Source: Paremcibacter congregatus (GTDB lineage: Bacteria; Pseudomonadota; Alphaproteobacteria; Sphingomonadales; Emcibacteraceae). Taken from it: a stretch of 64,000 nucleotides of DNA. Each line of letters starts with the position of its first letter. The stretch's first letter is position 1. Position numbers and translations under genes: made by a program. The notes below the pieces were generated by a model. That model did no database searches, was not told where the DNA came from, and saw only the letters and a list, made by a program, of their open reading frames with translations. This document shows, piece after piece, positions 49,766-58,127 of this stretch. The stretch covers positions 310,001 through 374,000 of the forward strand of contig NZ_CP041025.1 in assembly GCF_006385135.1 (NCBI RefSeq). The letters run 5' to 3'.

Positions 49766-49785
49766 ACTCCTGCCTGGGCAGGAGT
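49766..49785. repeat. Palindromic repeat, left copy
   Basis: ACTCCTGCC-TG-GGCAGGAGT, a perfect 9-bp inverted repeat of a type dispersed in many proteobacterial genomes. A related copy lies at 50384-50403, so the pair brackets the AT-rich gene between them. Confidence 0.65.
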
Positions 49786-49828
49786 GACAATAAGTTTTGG
49801 TAACCGTATGAGAATAAAAAGGGATAAA

Positions 49829-50344
49829 ATGTCTGATCAAATGAATATAGAAAATACAGGTTTTTTTAGTTATGTCCCCACACGTTTGGCATTGGGCGGT
49901 TTTGTATCATTAGTTGCTGGCTATTTTGTCTATTTTGCTTGGTGGTTGGGTTTGCCGCCTACTAAAGATAGCGGGGTGTGGGGAAGCTTTGGCGATTTCC
50001 TTGGGGGAGTATTGAATCCGTTAATAGCGATTGCAGTTTTATATTATGTTGTAAGAACTTTTGAATTTCAAAAGGAAGAATTAAAACTTACCAGACAGGA
50101 ACTAAAAGATACAAGGCTGGAACATGAAAAGCAAACGCGTGAACTGATGAAGCAATCCTTAGAGCGGGAAAAAGTAACTAAAATTCAAAGAAATGAGGTC
50201 TTAATTAAATGGCTAGAGAAAGAAATAGGGGAGAAGAATCAATCAAAGTTAGAACCAAGAAGTGATACCACAGAAATACAAGGTCATATAGATTACATCA
50301 ACAATAGAATCAACGAATTGAAAGCAGAAATATCCTCTTTGTAA
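49829..50344 (+). CDS. Membrane-anchored coiled-coil protein, function unknown
   Basis: This protein of about 171 residues has two membrane segments (LGGFVSLVAGYFVYFAWWLG and FLGGVLNPLIAIAVLYYVV) with a conserved WGSFGDFLGGVLNPL motif between them. A long charged coiled coil follows (FQKEELKLTRQELKDTRLEHEKQ; HIDYINNRINELKAEI). This layout resembles a broad family sometimes annotated as putative phage abortive-infection proteins, but nothing here proves defence. The coding region is clearly richer in A and T than its neighbours, and palindromic repeats lie on both sides, suggesting acquisition. The ATG at 49829 has an AAAAAGGG site. Alternative starts are 49784 and 49808. Confidence 0.7.
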   Translation: MSDQMNIENTGFFSYVPTRLALGGFVSLVAGYFVYFAWWLGLPPTKDSGVWGSFGDFLGGVLNPLIAIAVLYYVVRTFEFQKEELKLTRQELKDTRLEHEKQTRELMKQSLEREKVTKIQRNEVLIKWLEKEIGEKNQSKLEPRSDTTEIQGHIDYINNRINELKAEISSL

Positions 50345-50504: not shown

Positions 50505-51542
50505 TTATCTGCCGTCATTCAGGTCAAGGGCGTCATCGAAATCTTCGAGCCGTTCCTCGACGGCTTCCGAATCTTCGAAAATGGCGATATGGAACATGGC
50601 GTCCCCCTGATTGAGCAGCGGCAGCATGGTCATGCCAATAATGATGCCGGTGCGATGGCTTTTGACCTTGGCCATATAGCTGCCGTATGGGTCTGAAATC
50701 ACGCCAAGAGTTTGGCCTTCTTTCACCATAGCCCCCAACTTGACCCGTACCCTGAGGCTGCCGCTATGGGGCGCGCGCACCCAGTAGCTTGTCCGCGCAA
50801 TAAAGACGTTCTCGGGCCGTTTGCGGCGCTTGCGTTCTTTTGGGGCGATCATGCCGATGGATTCCATGACGGACAGGATTCCCATCAGCGCGGTCTGGAT
50901 GACTTTTTCCTCATAGCGCAGGGCTTCCCCGCCTTCGAAAAGTAGCATGGGAATGCCTTTTTCCAACGCGGCCTGGCGCAGGGAGCCGTCCCGGGTGTTG
51001 GAATCGATAATGACCGGCACCCCGAAAGCCTTGGCGAGGGTTTCGGTTTCCGGATCAGTGAGGTCGGCCCGGATCTGCGGCAGATTGGTGCGGTGGATTG
51101 CGCCGGTGTGAAGATCGATGCCATGGGTCGATTTCTCAATGATTTCCCGCATCAGGATATGGGCGATCTGTCCGCCGAGAGAGCCGGTTTCCGACCCGGG
51201 GAAACAACGGTTCAGATCGCGCCGGTCCGGCAGATAGCGGCTGTTGCTGTTGAAGCCATAGGCGTTGACGATCGGCATGGCGATCAGTGTGCCCTTGATC
51301 TTGCTGTTGATGCGTTTGTTGGCGAGCAGCCGTTTGATGGTTTCGACGCCATTGATTTCATCCCCGTGGATGGCGGCGGACAGGAATAAAACCGGTCCGC
51401 TTTCCCGTCCCCGGATTACCATGACCGGCATGGACATTTCCGTATCATCAAACAGGCGGGCGATGGGGATCTCGATCTTCATCCGTTTGCCGGGGGGAAT
51501 GCGTTTGCCGGCGATTTCCAGAATGCCGCGAGGGTCCTCCAT
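50505..51542 (-). CDS. M14-type succinylglutamate desuccinylase/aspartoacylase family hydrolase
   Basis: This 345-residue zinc hydrolase is of the AstE/AspA subgroup of M14 carboxypeptidases. Zinc ligands are in AAIHGDEINGVE (His, Glu) and GIDLHTGAI (His). A catalytic Glu is likely in LLFEGGEAL. A beta-barrel C-terminal domain follows (IARTSYWVRAPHSGSLRV), and the protein ends in a strongly acidic tail (EDSEAVEERLEDFDDALD). It is five bases downstream of rimK and must be co-expressed with it, which makes removal of glutamates or another amide product of RimK a plausible role. That role is inference. Free N-acyl amino acids are the alternative substrates. Confidence 0.85.
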   Translation of the reverse strand: MEDPRGILEIAGKRIPPGKRMKIEIPIARLFDDTEMSMPVMVIRGRESGPVLFLSAAIHGDEINGVETIKRLLANKRINSKIKGTLIAMPIVNAYGFNSNSRYLPDRRDLNRCFPGSETGSLGGQIAHILMREIIEKSTHGIDLHTGAIHRTNLPQIRADLTDPETETLAKAFGVPVIIDSNTRDGSLRQAALEKGIPMLLFEGGEALRYEEKVIQTALMGILSVMESIGMIAPKERKRRKRPENVFIARTSYWVRAPHSGSLRVRVKLGAMVKEGQTLGVISDPYGSYMAKVKSHRTGIIIGMTMLPLLNQGDAMFHIAIFEDSEAVEERLEDFDDALDLNDGR

Positions 51543-51547
51543 GGGGG

Positions 51548-52462
51548 CTATCCTTTGCCCTTCATTTTATTGGGCCCTTTTTGCGAATCCTTTTCGATAT
51601 AGGAAATGATTTTATCGGCGACGTCGATGGTGGTGTAGGTCTCTATGCCTTTCAAACCGGGCGAGGAATTAACTTCCAGCACCAGAGGCCCGTGGGCGGA
51701 ACGGATGATATCAACGCCCGCCACATCAAGCCCGATGGTTTTGGCGGCCCGCACCGCCAGCGCGCGTTCGGCGGGTTTCAGTTTGACCAGAGTGGCCGAG
51801 CCGCCCATATGCAGGTTAGAGCGGAATTCGCCTTCCTGGGCCTGACGCTTCATGGCGGCGACCACTTTGTCCCCGACAACGAAACAGCGAATGTCGGCCC
51901 CGCCGGCTTCCTTGATAAATTCCTGGACAAGGAAATTGGCGTCGAGACCGCGGAAGGCGTTGATCAGGCTCTCGGCGGCTTTCTTGGTTTCGGCCAGAAC
52001 CACGCCGTTGCCGTGGGTGCTTTCCATGATTTTTACCACAATCGGTGCGCCGCCGACGAATTCGATCAGGTCTTCTGTGGCGTTGGCCGCATGGGCATAC
52101 CCGGTGATCGGCATGCCGACGCCTTTGCGGGCCAGAAGCTGATGGGCGCGCAGCTTGTCTCGGGATCGGGAAATGGCGATGGATTCATTGACGGAATAAA
52201 CCCCGCCCACTTCGAACTGACGCAAGACGGCTGTGCCATAGGCGGTGACAGAGGCGCCGATTCGGGGAATCACGGCATCAAAATCAAGCAGTTCACGCGT
52301 GTCCCGCGGCTTGTAATAAACGGTTGGTTTGTTGGCGGTGATATTCATATAGCATTTCAGAATATCAACCACTTTAACCTCATGTCCTCGCGCCTTAGCC
52401 GCCTCGACGAGTCTGCTTGTGGAATAAAGCTTGGGATTGCGCGACAGAATACCTATTTTCAT
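51548..52462 (-). CDS. rimK: RimK-type ATP-grasp glutamate ligase
   Basis: RimK adds glutamates to the C-terminus of ribosomal protein S6 in E. coli. This 304-residue protein is closely similar along its whole length: [18 protein letters not shown] at the start, [24 protein letters not shown] in the pre-ATP-grasp domain, then [48 protein letters not shown] and the metal-binding [13 protein letters not shown]. All key ATP-grasp positions (Lys, Glu, Asn) are retained. It forms an operon with the M14 hydrolase. The divergent RimB-RimK fusion shares the intergenic region. Confidence 0.93.
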
Positions 52463-52664
52463 AATTGATCCATTTGTACTAAAGAAGGCCCGCCACCATA
52501 TTCAAGAATTATATCGAGAAGTCAAATCATCTATGTATCTTCTCTTCGATGTGGGTCTGTGACGGGTGAAATCAGGGCGGGCGGCTTTTTTGCTTTTAGC
52601 GATATATTTTTTAACCTGATGCATTATATTACGAAATCGGCGTTCACAGATGAGGAATGATGTA

Positions 52665-54011
52665 ATGGAAGACTTTGTCGTTGGATGGGAAGAGTGGTTG
52701 GCCTTGCCGAGCTTGGGCCTGCCTGCACTCAAGGCGAAAATAGATACCGGGGCCAAAACCTCGGCCCTGCATGCCTTTTCCATTCAGCCCTTTGGCAGTG
52801 ACGCCAAGCCCCGGGTGCGTTTTACCATTCATCCGATTCCCGACCGCCCGGATGTGGAGATCATCTGTTCCGCCCGAGTGATCGACCGCCGCGAAGTAAC
52901 CTCGTCCAACGGCACCAATGAGCTGCGCTATGTAATTTTGGTGCCGGTGCAGATGGGAGACAAGACCTGGAACATCGAGGTCACCCTGACCAATCGCGAG
53001 AATATGGCCTACCGGATGCTGCTCGGGCGGCGGGCGATGGAAGGCATCGGCGTGCGGCCGGGCCAATCTTTCCTGCAGCCGCAGTTAAGTTATGACCTTT
53101 ATAATAAATTGAAGCGAAAACCTGCGGCGCGGCGGTCTTTCCGCCTGGCGATCCTGACTTCAGCACCGGACAGTTATTCCACCCGCCGCCTGGTCGAAGC
53201 CGCCGAAGCCCGCGATCATGTGGTGGAACTGATTGATACGCGACGCTGCTATTTCGAGATCAGCAGTCATAGCCCGCAAGTTTATTATCAGGGGGCGCCC
53301 CTGCCATTTTATGATGCGGTGATTCCGCGCATCGGCGCGTCTCTAACGGTATACGGGCGGGCGGTGGTGCGTCAGTTTCAGGCCATGGGGACCTATTGTC
53401 TCAATTCCGCCGAGGGCATCGGCGCGGCGCGGGACAAACTCGCCGAACATCAGATCCTGTCGCGTAACCGGGTGGCGATGCCGACAACGGCCTATGCCAA
53501 TTCCCCGGAGGACACCGACAATATGATCAAGCTGGTCGGTGGTGAACCGGTAACCCTGAAATCGGTCCACGGCCTGCAGGGCGGTGGCATGACCATAGAC
53601 GAGCCAGCGGCGGCTTTTAATCCGGATCATGCGCCCGCGCCGGAGGCCAATCTGGTGGCGCGGGAGATTATCAGGGAAAACAGCAGCCCTGACCTGCGCT
53701 GTCTGGTGGTGGGTCGGCGTATTGTCGGGGCAATGCTCTTTGACGAGACGCCTTCTGTAGGGCGGCGCAAGACAAAGCGGAAGATTACCACGACCCCGGA
53801 AAGGCAGGTGGCGGTCAAGGCGGTCAAGGCGCTGGGCCTAACGGTGGCGGCGGTGGATATGATCCGCACGGCAGAGGGCCCCAAGGTGCTGGATGTCTTC
53901 TGCACCCCTGGTCTGGAAAAGATCGAGAAATCAAGCGGCAAAAATGTCGCCGAAAAGATCATAGAACATATCGAACGCAATGTGCGGCCGTTGTTCAAGT
54001 CTGTGAAGTAA
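52665..54011 (+). CDS. RimB-like retropepsin domain fused to a degenerate RimK-like ATP-grasp domain
   Basis: This protein has about 448 residues from the ATG at 52665, behind a GAGGA site; an ATG at 52650 is an alternative. Residues 1-145 match the PF05618 family (often called ATP-dependent zinc protease, RimB in Pseudomonas): VGWEEWLALPSLGLPALKAK, IDTGAKTSALHA with Asp27, and RMLLGRRAM. Residues ~159-448 align with RimK throughout ([43 protein letters not shown]). However, the metal-binding EVNSSPG is DVFCTPG here, and the [12 protein letters not shown] loop is replaced by GRRKTKRK. The ligase half is therefore probably inactive or altered. It is divergent from rimK. Confidence 0.88.
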   Translation: MEDFVVGWEEWLALPSLGLPALKAKIDTGAKTSALHAFSIQPFGSDAKPRVRFTIHPIPDRPDVEIICSARVIDRREVTSSNGTNELRYVILVPVQMGDKTWNIEVTLTNRENMAYRMLLGRRAMEGIGVRPGQSFLQPQLSYDLYNKLKRKPAARRSFRLAILTSAPDSYSTRRLVEAAEARDHVVELIDTRRCYFEISSHSPQVYYQGAPLPFYDAVIPRIGASLTVYGRAVVRQFQAMGTYCLNSAEGIGAARDKLAEHQILSRNRVAMPTTAYANSPEDTDNMIKLVGGEPVTLKSVHGLQGGGMTIDEPAAAFNPDHAPAPEANLVAREIIRENSSPDLRCLVVGRRIVGAMLFDETPSVGRRKTKRKITTTPERQVAVKAVKALGLTVAAVDMIRTAEGPKVLDVFCTPGLEKIEKSSGKNVAEKIIEHIERNVRPLFKSVK

Positions 54012-55948: not shown

Positions 55949-56890
55949 TCAGAAAGAAGTGGGTTTATAAGCCAGATAGCGGTAAACCTGAAGTCTTCCG
56001 GACTGCAGGGCCCGGGCGCGCATATCCCAGACTTCGGCCTCTTTCAGGATGATATTCAGGCTGTCCCTGTTGGCTTCCTTGTCTTCGGCCAATTCCAGAA
56101 CCAGTTCATTGGTCTGGGCCCAGGCCTGTTCGATCATTTTGATATAGGTGGTGGAGACATCTTCCTGAACACGGACCTGAAAACCGACTTCTTCCAGAAG
56201 GTTGCGCAGGCTGCTCGAATCACACAGGACGATATCATCGGGTTCGTTAATCTGCCACTGAACCATTTCGGGATGGTTGATGGACTTTTGATCCTTGGCG
56301 ACATAGTCGGTTAACAGGAACAGGCTGCTTTTTTTCAACTGTTTATGAACGGCTTTCAGCAGGTCCTTTTTATGGGTCACCTTGTACAGGGTGTCTTTGG
56401 AAAAGGCCCGGTCAAATTTTCGCTCGAAAATCGGACTGTCGTCGAGGTTCATCTGACTGATGATGGCTTTGCGCGCCAGGCCTTCGTCGACGGATATTTT
56501 CTGGGCGATTTCAGCCACGACGGGGTCGCTTTCATAGCCATTGATCCATACCCCGTAATCCTGAACAAGTTTGCGCGCCAGTCCGCCGAGCCCTGCGCCG
56601 ACGACGAGGGCACTCATCTGTGGTGACAGCGACAGTTGCTTTGACAGTTCATTAATGTAATCGGGGCCACCGGGATCGGATAATCCCTTGCCCCATATTT
56701 TCTGGATGAGATCAAGCCGGGCTTCCGTAGGCGAATGTTGTTCCGGTGCGGGTAGGGCTTGGATGACAGACCGCCGTCTTTTGCGGGGGCGCCGCATACG
56801 GGCATATTCCAACGGATCATAGCCTTCCCACCAGGCGAGAATACGCCAGAGGAAGGGGATATGTTCGGGATAGGTCTGTATATCGGTCAT
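55949..56890 (-). CDS. SAM-dependent methyltransferase-like protein, paralogue A
   Basis: This is the most divergent of three paralogues (313 residues). N-terminal LAWWEGYD (about residue 19) and the WGKGLSDPGG segment (66-75) precede a class I SAM-binding motif, SALVVGAGLGGLARKLVQ, and NGYES, whose acid would bind the ribose. RAFSKDTLYKV (about 160) follows. The WGxG(x)xxPGG plus GAGLGG and S-K-D-x-L-Y pattern resembles phosphoethanolamine/sarcosine-type N-methyltransferases. The N-terminus is Arg-rich (RMRRPRKRRR). It is separately transcribed, with overlapping CtrA-like boxes about 70-95 bases upstream. The substrate is unknown. Confidence 0.7.
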   Translation of the reverse strand: MTDIQTYPEHIPFLWRILAWWEGYDPLEYARMRRPRKRRRSVIQALPAPEQHSPTEARLDLIQKIWGKGLSDPGGPDYINELSKQLSLSPQMSALVVGAGLGGLARKLVQDYGVWINGYESDPVVAEIAQKISVDEGLARKAIISQMNLDDSPIFERKFDRAFSKDTLYKVTHKKDLLKAVHKQLKKSSLFLLTDYVAKDQKSINHPEMVQWQINEPDDIVLCDSSSLRNLLEEVGFQVRVQEDVSTTYIKMIEQAWAQTNELVLELAEDKEANRDSLNIILKEAEVWDMRARALQSGRLQVYRYLAYKPTSF

Positions 56891-57149: not shown

Positions 57150-58127
57150 TTATTTGATGGCGGCGGCTTTATGGGCCAGATACCGACATACTTTCAATTC
57201 GCCGGACCGCATGATCTTTGTCCGGCGGTTCCACAGCTCGGCTTCCTGCAGGACGGCATTCATATTGCTGCGGGCTTCTTCTTCTTCTTCCGTCGCGAGA
57301 GCCTCAACAGCGCCGGTTGCGTTTTCCCAAGCTTCATTGACCATCTCAAGATAATGTTCGGTCGTGTCTTCATTGACACGAATGGTGAACCCGACTTCTT
57401 CGAGGAGTTTGACCTGCATTTCCGAGGTGACGGGGAAAGGGTCAAGGGGCTCATGACGCAGCCAGTCGAGGACATCGGGGTTTGTCATGCTTTCCGGGCT
57501 TTTAATGACATAATCGCTGATCAGGAACAGGCTGTCGTCTTTAAGTTGTTTGTACACACTCTGGATCAGGGGTTTTTTATTTTCGACGGTGAACAGGGCT
57601 TCTTTACAGAAGGCCCGCTCAAAATTCCGGTCGAAGCTGGGTTTATCGTTGAGATCGCACTGCAGGATGGGGGCTTTTTTCTCCAGCCCGGCGCCAACGG
57701 ACATTTTCATCCCTTCTTTTGCCAGAATGTCATTGGATTCATAGCCGGTGATCCAGACACCGAATTCCTGGGCCAGGACCCGGGCGGGTCCGCCGAGGCC
57801 GGCGCCGAGGACAAGGGCGCTCATTTTCGGGGTCAGGGCCAGTAATTTGGACATGGCGATGACATTTTCGGCGCCGCCGGGGCCACAAAATCCCTGTCCC
57901 CAAACCAGCTGGGCGATTTTTACCCGGGCCTCGTCCCAGAGAATGCGTTGGCTGTCGTCTCGTCGTGTTGTTTCAGGAGCGCTCTTGCCGGTGTTGGTTT
58001 CGGGGCTTTGGGGGGCAGTGTTATTGAGACGGTTTGCGATATCTTCAACGTCATAGCCTTCCCACCAGGCCCTGAGCCTGAGTTTGAAAGGTACCGCTTT
58101 TTTAAGGGATTTATCTTTTTGGGTCAT
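57150..58127 (-). CDS. SAM-dependent methyltransferase-like protein, paralogue B
   Basis: This 325-residue protein is the middle member of the trio. It shows PFKLRLRAWWEGYDVEDI (13-30), LVWGQGFCGPGGAENVI (74-90), the SAM motif SALVLGAGLGGPARVLAQ (103-120) and ITGYES. RAFCKEALFTV takes the place of the S-R-D-A-I-L-H motif of phosphoethanolamine methyltransferases. The C-terminal third is helical and acidic (ATEEEEEARSN) and ends VCRYLAHKAAAIK. The start is 17 bases after the stop of paralogue C, so both are in one operon. Its close similarity to C indicates a recent duplication. Confidence 0.72.
   Translation of the reverse strand: MTQKDKSLKKAVPFKLRLRAWWEGYDVEDIANRLNNTAPQSPETNTGKSAPETTRRDDSQRILWDEARVKIAQLVWGQGFCGPGGAENVIAMSKLLALTPKMSALVLGAGLGGPARVLAQEFGVWITGYESNDILAKEGMKMSVGAGLEKKAPILQCDLNDKPSFDRNFERAFCKEALFTVENKKPLIQSVYKQLKDDSLFLISDYVIKSPESMTNPDVLDWLRHEPLDPFPVTSEMQVKLLEEVGFTIRVNEDTTEHYLEMVNEAWENATGAVEALATEEEEEARSNMNAVLQEAELWNRRTKIMRSGELKVCRYLAHKAAAIK

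Follow-up and report, generated by a model that had tools for sequence, protein, structure and literature searches.

Layout of the rimK-hydrolase-rimBK locus

Within a 64,000-nucleotide stretch of the Paremcibacter congregatus genome (hereafter the window; contig NZ_CP041025.1, positions 310,001 to 374,000), we analyzed a locus in which a separate rimK gene and a gene for an AstE/AspA-type zinc hydrolase lie divergently from a gene encoding a RimBK hybrid, in which a PF05618 (RimB) domain precedes a RimK domain within a single reading frame. The original prediction, made from the sequence alone, had described this arrangement, and it was confirmed both by the open reading frames (ORFs), all three of which are intact in the window with the boundaries first given, and by the Pfam matches. 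In window coordinates, with lengths in amino acids (aa) or base pairs (bp) and expectation values (E) where available, the features are as follows:

50505-51542, minus strand: hydrolase P0003, AstE/AspA-type zinc hydrolase, 345 aa (PF24827 match)
51548-52462, minus strand: rimK P0002, separate alpha-L-glutamate ligase as assigned by NF007764 and an intact active site
52463-52649, no strand: divergent intergenic region of 187 bp between rimK-hydrolase and rimBK (ORF positions)
52650-54011, plus strand: RimBK hybrid P0001, 453 aa, with a degenerate ATP-grasp half (Pfam, residue alignment)
52677-53081, plus strand: RimB domain, PF05618, retropepsin-like, residues 10-144 (E 1.1e-31)
52743-52751, plus strand: DTG active-site motif (D32) in the RimB domain (alignment of fused sequences)
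53142-53420, plus strand: RimK pre-ATP-grasp domain, residues 165-257, with a near-normal divergence rate (Pfam, identity to congener)
53427-53972, plus strand: RimK ATP-grasp domain, degenerate, residues 260-441 (Pfam, residue alignment)
53739-53756, plus strand: FDETPS at the position of the FRSNLH catalytic loop of relatives (alignment)
53892-53900, plus strand: DVF at the position of EVN in relatives, E260/N262 in P. aeruginosa RimK numbering (alignment)

Besides PF05618, the fusion matched Rimk_N (E 1.7e-37) and RimK ATP-grasp (E 3.9e-26) in Pfam. PF05618 has a single match in the whole genome and PF08443 has four, two at the locus, one in a weaker ATP-grasp protein (69 bits) and one marginal, presumably in a carboxylase-like protein. 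The hydrolase gene starts 5 bp past the end of rimK on the same minus strand, and from this spacing the two genes are probably co-transcribed. A simple scan found no sigma-70-like promoter in the rimK/rimBK intergenic region; it returned one sigma-70-like site (2.6 in shuffles), within the hydrolase gene, and 10 terminator-like sites (4.6 in shuffles), mostly intragenic.

The separate ligase matched Pfam RimK with an E of 1.9e-65 and the NCBIfam S6--L-glutamate ligase model NF007764 with 434 bits, above its cut-off of 331, and every catalytic residue checked was present in the alignment. Family membership and an intact active site thus support its assignment as a glutamate ligase, the writer, in line with the original prediction. 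The fused half scored 240 bits against the same model, below the cut-off. In the RimB domain, which exceeds the PF05618 cut-off and falls below that of NCBIfam NF052261 Asp_endo_RimB (121 against 200 bits), the DTG motif and the other invariant residues are kept; D32 and G34 of this motif do not vary across the 31 fused sequences aligned, out of 35 available, and by motif D32 would be the equivalent of D31 in the RimB of SBW25 (PMC11957791). RimB is described there as a retropepsin-like endopeptidase that removes polyglutamate by cleaving glutamate stretches from about five residues upward and requires five to six contiguous ones, with high specificity for poly-alpha-glutamate in the assays, and that stimulates poly-glutamate synthesis by RimK; cleavage of poly-alpha-glutamate is reported for both SBW25 RimB and the RimBK of Desulfotalea psychrophila (PMC11957791). 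Pseudomonas RimB also binds RimK and alters its activity (PMC11957791, PMC10092738). Since RimB itself is a published polyglutamate protease, the fusion carries an eraser domain by homology, and the earlier division of labor, with the RimB half as regulator and an M14 hydrolase as eraser, is rejected in that form.

Degeneration of the fused ligase half

To compare the two ligase domains of the locus with intact relatives, residues were mapped by alignment to P. aeruginosa RimK numbering, and the comparison drew on 33 intact fusions and 30 unfused RimKs. We take K100, K141, E178, R203, N213, D248 and E260 to be ATP-grasp positions. Poly-glutamate contacts in P. aeruginosa RimK are reported at S7, R8, S14, R64, S68, R189 and N262, and R211, H215 and R216 are named in the same work (PMC10092738). 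Whereas R64, K100, K141, R189, R203, R211, N213, H215, D248, E260 and N262 are kept in 33/33 intact fused and 30/30 unfused sequences, the P. congregatus fusion has lost R203, R211, N213 and H215, has D in place of E260 and F in place of N262, and lacks the FRSNLH loop through a 7-residue gap and substitutions. The predicted changes of EVN to DVF and loss of FRSNLH are therefore correct against both comparison sets. R64, K100, K141, E178, R189 and D248 are still present; the substrate-site R8 has become S, a position that is not diagnostic, being also absent in 7/33 intact fusions. Judged by these residues, the fused ATP-grasp domain is catalytically degenerate.

The same six residues (R203, R211, N213, H215, E260 and N262) are also gone from the fusions of G305, G311 and G316, which belong to a single other genus, together with R64 and K100; the FRSNLH-loop alignment is uncertain in these three. 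These and the P. congregatus protein, in which the six losses are shared by 4/4, were the only degenerate fusions among the 37 fused sequences compared, a set that excludes split rimB-rimK neighbors and the two-match fusion G097 and so does not comprise all fusions. In the RimB tree the three fusions of the other genus are placed apart from that of P. congregatus, and therefore two losses are indicated. The hydrolase gene comes after a separate, intact rimK in 4/4 degenerate-fusion genomes and in at least 2/33 intact-fusion genomes (G312 and G301; Fisher p 2e-4), counts that rest on a limited candidate set scored per genome, so that a further RimK could be missed. Because there were only two independent losses, the link between degeneration and a separate RimK is suggestive. 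RimBK hybrids are already named and described as a protein type, with an additional rimK in 0.9% of the rimBK accessions surveyed (PMC11957791); what is new here is the twice-degenerate ligase half within this known type.

The local history of the fusion is seen in a congener, G321, in which ilvB-ilvH-ilvC-rimBK-lepA and two methyltransferase genes stand in the same order as in P. congregatus, the fusion is intact, and the rimK-hydrolase pair is absent between ilvC and rimBK. Identity between the two genomes is 89% for LepA, 93% for IlvC and 77% for RimB, and 55% for the ligase half. In the ligase-half tree the P. congregatus sequence pairs with that of G321 and has a terminal branch of 0.62; its distance to G321 is 0.80 versus 0.40 for the intact pair G355-G321, while the RimB-half distance shows no excess (0.35 versus 0.37). 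In P. congregatus the RimB half thus evolved normally and the ligase half fast, and in our reading the fusion descends from an intact RimBK. No fusion match was found in 14/16 genomes of the genus searched, many of which are incomplete. For the rimK-hydrolase pair, a gain in P. congregatus and a loss in G321 are indistinguishable. The pair is 90% identical in protein to that of G312; a recent transfer between these two genomes was considered and dropped, as synonymous sites are saturated (proportion of synonymous differences, pS, 0.82).

In the other lineage, ratios of nonsynonymous to synonymous substitution rates (dN/dS) among G311, G316 and G305 were 0.20-0.27 for the ligase halves, 0.09-0.13 for the RimB halves and 0.04-0.06 for the separate RimKs, where one of the three pairs is saturated and the values come from the other two. 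Some of the synonymous rates (dS) are above 2 and therefore rough. Constraint on these ligase halves is relaxed, yet dN/dS is below 1. For the P. congregatus gene, comparison with G321 gave a dN/dS of 0.13 at a dS of 2.7, and comparisons with G355 and G306 were unmeasurable, at or near synonymous saturation. Its divergence is uneven along the ligase half: identity to G321 is 70% in the pre-ATP-grasp part, 50% in the central ATP-grasp part and 51% in the C-terminal part, versus 77%, 85% and 69% in the intact pair G321-G355. An AlphaFold2 model of the fusion has a mean predicted local distance difference test score (pLDDT) of 81.9, high over RimB and the pre-ATP-grasp part and below 50 at residues 308-323 and 367-374, and aligns with P. 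aeruginosa RimK 7qyr over 284 residues (Z 34.0, root-mean-square deviation (rmsd) 2.3). About 290 codons remain open in the four degenerate-fusion genomes of the two lineages.

The hydrolase and its association with RimK

In the phylum set of 398 genomes, a close hydrolase, defined by E<=1e-30, was found in 94, RimK in 157 and PF05618 in 138. All 94 close-hydrolase genomes have RimK and 92 of them have PF05618, with a naive hypergeometric p of 4e-49 for the hydrolase-RimK pairing, uncorrected for shared ancestry; 63 genomes have RimK without a close hydrolase. At least 60 of the 94 carriers have the hydrolase gene within 2 kilobases (kb) of rimK or rimBK, and among the matches listed there were 62 hydrolase-rimK pairs; in 60 of them the hydrolase gene lies downstream of its partner, on the same strand, after a gap of 5-284 bp, and in the other two the genes are on opposite strands. 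A class set of 289 genomes, in which RimK presence was scored with the fusion as query, gave RimK in 30/31 strong carriers (>=200 bits), 7/60 genomes with weaker homologues only and 14/198 with none, and hydrolase-RimK adjacency in 23/31 strong carriers. The tie of the hydrolase to RimK is therefore strongly supported. A hydrolase gene was also observed adjoining an intact rimBK, divergently in G298 and upstream in G232 and G130, which ties the hydrolase to the Rim system and not just to a separate rimK. No description of a RimK-hydrolase link was found in the literature searched, although an earlier mention is still possible. The hydrolase was originally proposed to belong to this system; its tie to RimK bears this out, and its role becomes that of a candidate further degradative enzyme.

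By family the protein matches PF24827 AstE_AspA_cat (E 5.7e-36, 124.3 bits against a cut-off of 25), and it scores below the NCBIfam cut-offs for DoeB (77.5 versus 402.7), AstE (20.5 versus 305.65) and AspA (27.5 versus 180). Its motifs are HGDE (H59, E62), DLNR (D109, N111), DLHTG (H145) and E203, among which we take H59, E62 and H145 to be the HxxE...H zinc ligands and E203 the catalytic glutamate of the family; an alignment of 36 sequences shows no variation at H59, E62, D109, N111, H145, R158 and E203. The AlphaFold2 model (pLDDT 90.9) resembles CphZ, a cyanophycin dipeptide hydrolase, with a Z of 28.8 and an rmsd of 2.8-2.9 over 300-301 aligned residues at 16-17% identity, and carboxypeptidases at a Z near 18, including CCP5 (Z 17.8, 212 aligned). 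The earlier label 'M14' is accordingly loose, since the family match is to AstE/AspA, but it does agree with the predicted fold. Enzymes of cyanophycin clusters that carry annotations as M14 or succinylglutamate desuccinylase/aspartoacylase are reported to be beta-Asp-Arg dipeptidases (PMC10206079). Our best guess, by analogy, is that the hydrolase acts as an exo- or dipeptidase on glutamate pieces too short for RimB; judging from the modeled fold, a DoeB-like deacylation is likewise possible.

A candidate poly-alpha-L-glutamate synthesis-and-turnover module

What is observed here comprises the anatomy of the locus, the missing residues, the gene history of the region, the constraint measured in the other lineage and the association of RimK with the hydrolase; the reactions in P. 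congregatus, the co-transcription, the substrate of the hydrolase and a docking role are what we infer. In a reading to which we assign a probability of about 50%, the locus would be a module for the synthesis and turnover of poly-alpha-L-glutamate. Glutamate would be ligated by the separate RimK to a protein C-terminus, to free glutamate, or to both of these; the fusion, through its RimB domain, would cut chains at least about five glutamates long; and the hydrolase would remove the leftover short oligo- or di-glutamates, a position in the scheme that the published M14-type cyanophycin dipeptide hydrolase takes after cyanophycinase. With a separate RimK present, the fused ATP-grasp domain would have lost catalysis, with the RimB half under normal constraint. 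RimK homologues of solved structure are tetramers, and the remnant ligase domain probably still folds and docks or co-assembles with RimK, which would hold the protease near the writer. More tentatively, bacteria may widely run a poly-alpha-glutamate cycle in which RimK makes the polymer, RimB cuts it and the hydrolase, as a third enzyme not yet described, finishes it off, a prokaryotic parallel to the tubulin glutamylase/deglutamylase pair; the RimBK ligase half may, in both lineages with residue losses, have become a pseudoenzyme, co-assembling with active RimK and so tethering the protease to the writer.

Several observations weigh against the module. Among the matches listed, the hydrolase of 34/94 carriers has no rimK closer than 2 kb, and G152 (G152:C4:1432-2403), the sole exception among the 31 strong carriers, has a 33%-identical hydrolase and no RimK match. 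The closest folds to the hydrolase model are 3cdx (Z 35.4) and DoeB 6twm, an N-acetyl-diaminobutyrate deacetylase (Z 34.6), and because these are the closest, the substrate may be an N-acyl amino acid. G312 and G301 retain an intact fusion despite a separate RimK, and the degenerate state represents two evolutionary events only. For the P. congregatus ligase half, passive decay is possible, since synonymous sites at or near saturation give no firm dN/dS. P. aeruginosa RimB is reported to lower, not raise, the ATPase activity of RimK (PMC10092738), and the tails of ribosomal protein S6 show no sign of S6 as the target.

The target originally predicted was the ribosome or a small molecule; S6 as the ribosomal target is not supported by its tails in relatives. 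S6 ends in AATE in P. congregatus and in RKD, RRD and RRD in the three other degenerate-fusion genomes. Over 30 genomes, P. congregatus included, a C-terminal glutamate was present in 4/18 genomes with RimK or RimBK versus 5/12 without a match (Fisher p 0.42; two of the 12 Rim-negative genomes are below 90% complete), and the S6 tail was consequently discarded as a sign of Rim function. An RpsF with a penultimate Lys was not glutamylated in vitro (PMC4741518). On these sequences S6 is not supported as a common target in the group, although it may still be one in P. congregatus; proteins other than S6, or free poly-glutamate, are no less likely. As side observations, S6 of G312 and G330 ends in four encoded glutamates (EEEE), as though pre-glutamylated, and the gene neighboring S6 in P. 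congregatus, apparently that of ribosomal L9, encodes a product with a very acidic C-terminal tail with short glutamate runs, a possible RimB substrate or mimic.

Whether the remnant ligase has any function bears directly on the module. It may instead be a decaying, functionless leftover whose RimB half now serves as the rimB of the adjacent rimK-hydrolase operon, a reading that we regard as possible if somewhat doubtful. It fits the fast evolution of the P. congregatus ligase half, with its branch of 0.62 and its central ATP-grasp part at 50% versus 85% identity, and the low model confidence of the ATP-binding parts. Decay is harder to reconcile with some 290 codons kept open in four genomes of two lineages, with dN/dS of 0.20-0.27 in the other lineage, and with a near-normal pre-ATP-grasp part (70% versus 77%) and a predicted RimK fold in P. 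congregatus itself. The proposed 'decoy RimK' is half borne out: the domain is catalytically degenerate, and constrained in the other lineage, but any action as a decoy would be conjectural.

The remaining alternatives concern what is modified and by which enzyme. Ligase and hydrolase could add and remove glutamate or an acyl group on a small molecule, not on protein tails or poly-glutamate, which we consider unlikely. The relatives of solved structure nearest to the hydrolase include a DoeB-type deacetylase, the RimK relatives MptN and CofF act, by their family names, on coenzymes, and the S6 tails do not fit; PF05618 in 92/94 hydrolase genomes and the high specificity of RimB for poly-alpha-glutamate (PMC11957791) nevertheless argue for the polymer. 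Least probable, and in our estimate quite improbable, is the model of the original prediction taken with S6 as its ribosomal target, in which the M14 hydrolase erases a mark on S6 while RimK is regulated by the fusion acting as a decoy. That Pseudomonas RimB binds RimK and alters its activity (PMC11957791, PMC10092738), that the RimK of the cluster is intact and that the S6 of P. congregatus ends in glutamate all agree with it, but RimB itself is the published eraser (PMC11957791), and the S6 ends across genomes, those of the other degenerate-fusion genomes and the block by a penultimate Lys in vitro (PMC4741518) speak against it.

The module reading gains context from known systems. The tubulin TTLL/CCP pair likewise opposes an ATP-dependent glutamate ligase, TTLL being akin to RimK, to an M14-fold metallocarboxypeptidase, while its chain type and target differ. 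Cyanophycinase is not known to be related to RimB. The cyanophycin system as described follows a comparable course of ATP-dependent polymer synthesis, endo-cleavage and then an M14-type dipeptidase (PMC10206079), with a different polymer, and the neighbors of the hydrolase are here rimK and rimBK. In the RimBK of D. psychrophila, RimB is also N-terminal to RimK and the protease domain is kept; this protein showed protease activity and no glutamylation of SBW25 RpsF in the published account (PMC11957791). The present RimBK adjoins a separate intact RimK and has lost ATP-grasp catalytic residues, which may set it apart from that of D. psychrophila. The rimABK operon of Pseudomonas fluorescens also combines RimK with a RimB-type protease (PMC4741518, PMC7343187), whereas here the cluster has no rimA, RimB is fused and an AstE/AspA-type hydrolase is added. 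The rloABC operon of P. aeruginosa pairs a retropepsin-like protease with an ATP-grasp protein; unlike the locus here, its protease is secreted, it includes an inactive transglutaminase, and no such hydrolase figures in the operon as described (PMC12239564). Alongside the known fusion type, the RimK-tied hydrolase appears to be new.

For the poly-alpha-glutamate of RimK, the maker and the cutter are known, and the fate of the short glutamate pieces is not described in the literature searched; the hydrolase, the close form of which was never seen without RimK in the 398 phylum genomes, is a concrete and assayable candidate. The two losses of RimBK ligase residues, both in genomes with a separate RimK, offer a natural experiment that parts the protease role from the ligase role. 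To judge by the S6 tails, S6 may not be an obligatory substrate of RimK in this group.

Two neighboring features of the locus were also observed. A 186-aa ORF at 49784-50344 (plus strand), with ilvC on one side and the hydrolase gene on the other, has no Pfam match and is unmatched in the ilvC-rimBK stretch of G321. Downstream of lepA, two related adjacent methyltransferase genes at 55949-56890 and 57150-58127 (minus strand) have CMAS-like Pfam matches, and their order is conserved in the congener.

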